DNA from: a virus
Virus record (IMG/VR): IMGVR_UViG_3300030328_002788
Coordinates: 1 to 26,162 of that record
Length of the DNA stretch: 26,162 nucleotides
Strand: one strand, 5' to 3'
Notes under the pieces: generated by a model
Database searches by the model: none
What the model saw: only the letters and a program-made list of their open reading frames with translations
What the model was told of the DNA's origin: nothing
Position numbers and translations under genes: made by a program
Shown: in pieces, positions 4,362 to 22,158 of the stretch
Numbering within the stretch: the first letter of the stretch is position 1
How the letters are laid out: every line of letters begins with the position of its first letter

Positions 4362-4369
4362 CAAATATA
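4362..4369 (-). promoter_or_regulatory. Candidate Bacteroidota -7 box TATATTTG
   Basis: TATATTTG on the - strand matches the Bacteroidota -7 consensus TAnnTTTG. No clear TTG is seen at -33. It sits 97 bases upstream of the exonuclease start in a 120-base gene-free stretch (4266-4385). Transcription from it would pass through the hairpin at 4289-4304. Confidence 0.45.
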
Positions 4370-18868: not shown

Positions 18869-19047
18869 TCTTTAAATCTATAATATATTAGTCCTATTAC
18901 TATCGCACCAGCTACTAAAGGTACAAGTCCGATTAAGAACGTTGCTACAACGCCTGCAAATGAGGCGAAGAGCAATGTGCCTAATGCAATAGCGAAACCC
19001 GTGATACACAGGTTAAACGCCTTGTCTAATAAGTTTTGTTTATCCAT
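18865..19047 (-). CDS. Small two-TM membrane protein
   Basis: 60 residues, two hydrophobic segments (FNLCITGFAIALGTLLFASF and TFLIGLVPLVAGAIVIGLIY) joined by a short turn, with Asp/Lys at the N-terminus and RFKE at the end. A hairpin-type membrane protein; it might modify the host membrane or block superinfection, but this is only a possibility. Confidence 0.68.
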   Translation of the reverse strand: MDKQNLLDKAFNLCITGFAIALGTLLFASFAGVVATFLIGLVPLVAGAIVIGLIYYRFKE

Positions 19048-20711: not shown

Positions 20712-20737
20712 AATAGTTTAGTCGAGCCGCAAAATTC

Positions 20738-20769
20738 TTTGCGAGTTAATAAATAGTTTTATATATTTG
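20738..20769 (+). promoter_or_regulatory. Bacteroidota-type promoter reading against the early operon
   Basis: TTTG (20738-20741), a 20-base spacer and TATATTTG (20762-20769) together fit the Bacteroidota -33/-7 consensus. This is the only place where I found both elements at proper spacing. Transcription would start near 20774 and run rightward through the structured region 20772-20943. The TTTG also lies in a hairpin arm, so coincidence is possible. Confidence 0.5.
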
Positions 20770-20771
20770 TC

Positions 20772-20943
20772 TTCCCAACGGAAATGGTTGACGACTTTTA
20801 TAGGAATATAATTGGATCAGATACCTTGCTCCATACGAGATAGCGCAGTTGTTCTTTACAACTTTCTGGCTGCCCAGCTGTATACTAATCGTAGTGACTA
20901 GTTCACAGTGAGCAAGCAGAATTTAAAGTTGTGGATGGCAGCC
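20772..20943. ncRNA. Candidate structured non-coding RNA with crossing helices
   Basis: A gene-free interval (20712-20942) rich in complementary segments: CTTGCTC (20825-20831) with GAGCAAG (20910-20916); TACGA (20834-20838) with TCGTA (20889-20893); AGTTGT/ACAACT hairpin (20847-20863); GTGA/TCAC hairpin (20894-20906). ACAACTTT (20858-20865) also matches AAAGTTGT (20925-20932), and GGCTGCC (20868-20874) matches GGCAGCC (20937-20943), in crossing order as in a pseudoknot. Strand is undecided: a + promoter precedes it, but neighbouring genes are -. No known RNA family recognised. Confidence 0.5.
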
Positions 20944-22032: not shown

Positions 22033-22150
22033 GATTGATTTGATTTTAATTAATTAGTTTTGATTGTTAGATGGCGGAGCCTAAAAGATTGGGAAGCACA
22101 CGGGGTGTGCAGCATAGGGTATCACTCCCTCACAACTAAAAAAAATTTTT
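22033..22150. promoter_or_regulatory. Divergent intergenic region between early and late arms
   Basis: Gene-free apart from a doubtful 22-codon frame. Contains a perfect GCACAC-GGG-GTGTGC hairpin (about 22097-22111), an AGGG/CCCT pair just after it and an A7T6 tract (22139-22151). No TAnnTTTG box was found for the leftward early transcript, so that promoter may be non-canonical or phage-specific. Confidence 0.6.
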
Positions 22151-22158
22151 TATATTTG
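22139..22158 (+). promoter_or_regulatory. Candidate late promoter: A/T tract plus TATATTTG
   Basis: AAAAAAATTTTTT runs into TATATTTG (22151-22158), a match to the Bacteroidota -7 box. No TTG stands at -33; the A/T tract may act as an upstream or bent-DNA element. The first ATG of the late operon is at 22163, so the transcript would be leaderless or nearly so. Confidence 0.55.

Follow-up and report, generated by a model that had tools for sequence, protein, structure and literature searches.

A stretch of viral DNA of 26,162 nucleotides (positions 1 to 26,162 of IMG/VR record IMGVR_UViG_3300030328_002788; hereafter, the window) carries a conserved element that is probably a stand-alone structured RNA gene of Bacteroidetes phages, whose product of ~170 nt would be transcribed rightward and act in trans. 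The parts of this proposal differ in strength. That the element is an RNA gene is very likely from its pattern of conservation, and protein binding in trans is put forward as its tentative function. Of the readings considered, a stand-alone RNA has the best support, given that the element is followed by no gene on its own strand and that the promoter and the 5′ hairpin are held in a fixed register. Like structured non-coding RNAs of phages in general, the element has a conserved promoter and a compensated structure and lacks an ORF. It would represent a structured RNA family that is absent from Rfam 15 and is found in every covering contig of a marine Bacteroidetes phage group. Its expression, its folding, and searches for its partners are open to direct test with the alignment, promoter, and covariance model. 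The features discussed below are as follows.

20727 to 20743, strand not assigned: inverted repeat CCGCAAAATTCTTTGCG, a possible operator that forms the conserved upstream boundary of the unit
20738 to 20769, + strand: promoter TTTG-N20-TATATTTG of the Bacteroidetes sigma-ABfr type, from motif conservation
20774 to 20943, + strand: predicted RNA (~170 nt), its start set by the promoter rule and its 3′ end by the limit of conservation
20776 to 20790, + strand: hairpin H1, CAAC/GTTG, at the RNA 5′ end
20798 to 20811, + strand: hairpin H2, TTATA-GGAA-TATAA, with a GNRA loop; 100% paired on this strand
20814 to 20832, + strand: hairpin H3a, GGA-U-CAG / YUG-C-UCC; 98.9% paired on this strand and 86.7% on the − strand
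20848 to 20852 with 20858 to 20862, + strand: alternative local hairpin H4, GTTGT/ACAAC, competing with helix A
20858 to 20865, + strand: helix A, 5′ strand, ACAACTTT
20868 to 20874, + strand: helix B, 5′ strand, GGCTGCC
20877 to 20909, + strand: inner domain inside the pseudoknot, with a CTG/CAG stem and invariant ATACTAATCGTAGTG; fold uncertain
20925 to 20932, + strand: helix A, 3′ strand, AAAGTTGT, partner of ACAACTTT
20937 to 20943, + strand: helix B, 3′ strand, GGCAGCC, partner of GGCTGCC and sharp 3′ edge of conservation

Relatives, promoter motif, and predicted extent of the RNA

DNA patterns were used to gather 20 further IMG/VR contigs, which together with the window represent 15 distinct sequences (14 besides the window). 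The aligned sequences are close relatives, and some of the changes among them are probably single events or were spread by recombination. An independent search with the TerL protein yielded 34 contigs, and the RNA is present in all 16 of those searched whose sequence extends 2.7 kb or further upstream of TerL. The element occurs as one copy per record in the 14 full records. The TerL protein of the window (609 aa) aligns with phrog_6681 along almost its entire length. Its closest matches come from crAss-like phages and from phages that infect Bacteroidetes; all of these fall below 60% identity, and the best one listed is near 30%. From such matches, these uncultured marine viruses appear to infect Bacteroidetes. 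In more distant relatives such as L001 and L012, but not in L009, sequence change is slower in the RNA than in the gene for the terminase; L001 is 93% identical over RNA columns 35 to 155 and 77% identical in TerL DNA.

A first-pass annotation of the window sequence had placed an element at 20821 to 20943. This interval lies within the conserved unit but is too short, covering only the 3′ part of a unit that spans approximately 20727 to 20943 and thus begins ~90 bases earlier. Conservation ends within a few bases of 20943, and no conserved terminator follows the element. At the upstream edge, the CCGCAAAATTCTTTGCG inverted repeat adjoins the promoter and is retained in all 15 distinct sequences, even where the promoter has moved away (L080); it is a possible operator.

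The motif TAnnTTTG lies upstream of the RNA in 15 of 15 sequences, and TTTG or TTG stands 19 to 20 nt before it in 13, the −33 box being absent at that distance from L001 and L011. These boxes are those of the Bacteroidetes −33/−7 promoter consensus (PMC7366714; PMC6847099). In L080 the spacer has grown, and a different TTTG stands at the right distance, which keeps the spacing. When the start rule from F. johnsoniae is applied, by which the promoter G is at −5 (PMC6847099), +1 is predicted at the first C of the CC that lies at the base of H1, in 14 of the 15 sequences. Additional copies of TATATTTG are found at window positions 4362, 6549, 19716, and 22151, several of them between genes, and this motif may be the general promoter element of the phage.

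Crossing helices and hairpins

Two perfect, adjacent pairings that cross one another had been described from the window sequence, and helices A (8 bp) and B (7 bp) proved to be exactly as described, pairing in all 15 distinct sequences. Each has undergone one two-sided compensatory change: helix A from ACAACTTT/AAAGTTGT to ACGACTTT/AAAGTCGT, an A-U to G-C double change found in four sequences, and helix B from GGCTGCC/GGCAGCC to GCCTGCC/GGCAGGC, a G-C to C-G double change found in L080, L082, and L083. The relatives serve as an independent test because both helices had been proposed beforehand from one sequence. A lack of compensatory changes among related phages had been named as grounds for abandoning the proposal; both crossing helices are compensated, and there is no conserved reading frame in the element across the 15 sequences, which upholds its description as structured and non-coding.

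The same annotation considered this arrangement unlikely by chance. This holds for the 123 bases that it covered, for which 5 of 20,000 dinucleotide shuffles produced an adjacent crossing pair of 8 and 7 bp, but not on the scale of the window, where ~0.5 such pairs are found per shuffled 26-kb sequence (counted in 100-base bins, with separate cases somewhat fewer). In the real window, A and B form the single site with such a pair. Judged from the window alone, the crossing pair is no more than suggestive. With a search of this size, its proof lies in conservation. At the level of comparative sequence analysis, the crossing pairings are confirmed as real.

Considered as a whole, the proposed structure is 99.2% paired on the + strand across the 15 sequences and 94.3% paired on the − strand. 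On the + strand, 24 cells are changed on both sides compared to 6.6 in column shuffles, and two-sided changes fall to 0 when the partners are slid. No single pair reached significance by tree-aware covariation over all column pairs among these 15 close relatives (best E values of 0.13 for an H2 pair, 0.9 for helix A, and 5 for helix B).

The hairpins that precede the pseudoknot are likewise preserved. H1 exists in four compensated versions, each of which pairs: CAAC/GTTG, CTAC/GTAG (L011), CAAT/ATTG (L001), and GAAC/GTTC (L082 to L084). In H2, two-sided changes affect three pairs, and the loop is GGAA, GGGA, or GTGA, a GNRA loop throughout the 15 sequences. The nested helices of the first-pass annotation fared less evenly. 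Five pairs of the outer 7-bp helix (20825 to 20831 with 20910 to 20916) are invariant, but its outer pairs break in several relatives, including L001, L002, and L011.

Two mutually exclusive folds had also been proposed, with one segment shared between H4 and helix A. H4 is 98.6% paired and persists in nearly all sequences, but it has one wobble position and no two-sided changes, so this claim stands as to retention and lacks covariation. The same annotation suggested a switch-like or decoy RNA. We see scarcely any likelihood that the element is a riboswitch or other cis switch of a downstream gene that alternates between H4 and helix A. Both alternative pairings are indeed kept in nearly all sequences, but the downstream genes vary and run the other way, and the element does not hold the fixed position 5′ of a same-strand gene that marks riboswitches and cis leaders. 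The switch reading is weak because H4 is kept without covarying and because there is no same-strand downstream gene to control.

Strand and genomic setting

The promoter and the pairing patterns make it quite likely that the rightward (+) strand is functional. In H2 and H3a, the G-U pairs are compatible with the + strand only, and both hairpins lose pairs on the − strand. It is unlikely that the functional RNA instead comes from the − strand, as a structured 3′ UTR or spacer of a leftward small-gene transcript that acts in processing or stability. In each of the 15 sequences, the − strand folds with the greater thermodynamic stability, and its inner hairpin of 11 bp is paired in 161 of 161 cells with wobble-only changes, compared to 84.5% paired on the + strand. 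In many cases, an adjoining leftward ORF also terminates precisely at the 3′ edge of the element. However, pairing over the whole structure is lower on that strand, both the promoter motif and the GNRA loops are sensible on the + strand only, and the neighboring leftward genes vary. The centre of the inner loop (20897 to 20902) is a palindrome in all sequences (ACTAGT, ATTAAT, or TTAA) despite its varying letters, a pattern that weakly fits loop-loop pairing between two copies.

In the relatives that reach the terminase gene, the element lies 1.9 to 2.7 kb upstream of it in a constant place and orientation. It points rightward, toward the terminase operon, among small leftward genes, and the small flanking proteins have no PHROG matches. 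The flanking genes differ between contigs up to both edges of the element, and those downstream are oppositely oriented and vary, with none on the same strand directly following. Because the RNA gene is retained in so variable a region, while surrounding genes swap freely, an important role is suggested. A DNA-level site (an origin, packaging site, or recombination site) with palindromes that merely resemble RNA structure would also fit the inverted repeats and gene cassettes that vary right up to both edges. We nevertheless assign this explanation a very slight probability. The G-U pairs on one strand only, the GNRA loops, and the register between promoter and hairpin all speak against it, and DNA sites do not need crossing compensation.

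The same arrangement bears on a cis-acting nascent RNA that would modify polymerase for rightward read-through to the late genes, by analogy with HK022 put RNA. Like put RNA (PMC9378689), the product of the element would be a structured phage RNA at the start of a transcript from a host-type promoter. In addition, the element always points toward the terminase operon, and its sharp 3′ boundary is followed by no terminator. However, we consider this role rather unlikely: 1.0 to 1.8 kb of oppositely oriented genes intervene before the late operon, and this operon carries a separate TATATTTG promoter that most aligned relatives retain. Furthermore, the element is pseudoknotted and longer, its fold being unlike the two-hairpin put RNA.

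Several other observations concern this region. Between window positions 19000 and 22032, and in the same region of relatives, small leftward genes are replaced while the RNA stays, as in a gene-exchange hot spot. The TATATTTG copy at 22151 precedes the late genes with an ATG within 5 bases, and the late gene there is possibly leaderless. L080, L082, L083, and L084 have a tRNA-Leu-like gene (recognized by eye) between the late promoter and the first late gene, whereas the window lacks one at this location. Just upstream of the late promoter and the terminase operon, at 22066 to 22141, lies a second conserved non-coding element, which has no Rfam match and is present in all related contigs that extend across the site. 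Compensatory versions of its hairpin, GCACAC-GGGG-GTGTGC, are GTGCAC/GTGCAC and GCACGC/GCGTGC, and 3 pairs are changed on both sides in the alignment fold.

Candidate roles and likeness to known RNAs

For a stand-alone RNA acting in trans, the following sequence of events can be proposed. Host RNA polymerase probably transcribes the RNA rightward from its own sigma-ABfr promoter. The RNA would open with two short hairpins and end in an H-type pseudoknot formed by A and B, which would enclose the invariant inner domain. In the nascent RNA, H4 would form first, sharing ACAAC with helix A, and would then swap to helix A as AAAGTTGT emerges, such that the RNA folds stepwise into the knot. The closed knot may protect the 3′ end, and the invariant inner segment ATACTAATCGTAGTG is a likely contact surface for protein. 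During takeover, the RNA could then act in trans by presenting its invariant loops to a host protein or to one from the packaging or late machinery.

An alternative role would be as a component of the DNA-packaging motor, like phi29 pRNA. The predicted length is similar to that of the 174-nt phi29 pRNA (PMC11476376), the element is near terminase genes in all relatives, and its palindromic loop could pair two copies, much as pRNA might make loop-loop contacts. However, we find a packaging RNA of this kind quite improbable. pRNA is said to be confined to phi29-like phages (PMC11476376), whereas this element matches no Rfam family, has the crossing A and B helices, and accompanies a large TerL with its nearly full-length phrog_6681 match. 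The locations also differ, phi29 pRNA being at the genome end and this element well upstream of TerL. A self-associating RNA that pairs through its palindromic loop and works in packaging or late machinery is highly improbable as well; if true, this would place a packaging-type RNA beyond the phi29-like phages.

The annotation recognized no known family, and database searches agree. The element matched none of the 4227 families in Rfam 15, either at gathering scores or up to an E value of 5, and the covariance models among them for GOLLD, ROOL, 6S-Flavo, Flavo-1, and phi29 pRNA gave no match. ARAGORN identified no tRNA or tmRNA in the window. A blastn search of known phages returned no match for the window element, and L083 gave nothing beyond 27-base chance matches to coliphages. 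A pattern scan of a genome collection gave 64 chance matches, none of which extend, and the covariance model, run without a positive control, had no matches in 397 genomes from the family of a Cellulophaga genome. Pairing of the RNA to other parts of the window had energies near those of shuffled sequence, self-matches aside.

We also considered an HDV-like ribozyme on the − strand, which has a similar order of helices. HDV ribozymes need room between the 3′ strands of the helices for P4 or the catalytic joining region. This candidate was ruled out because the gap of 2 to 3 bases there leaves no such room.

Other RNAs share general features with the element. ToxI-type antitoxin mimics (PhiTE; PMC3475682) are phage-borne RNA pseudoknots and potential binders of host protein, but they consist of a short pseudoknot in tandem repeats, whereas this element is a single unit of a predicted 170 nt with no Rfam match and no known toxin partner. 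6S-Flavo RNA (RF01685) and Flavo-1 (RF01705) are Bacteroidetes non-coding RNAs with a simple stem in place of a pseudoknot. GOLLD and ROOL are far larger, with GOLLD often exceeding 800 nt, but resemble the element as conserved phage RNAs of unassigned function that contain pseudoknots and kissing loops (PMC12286853).
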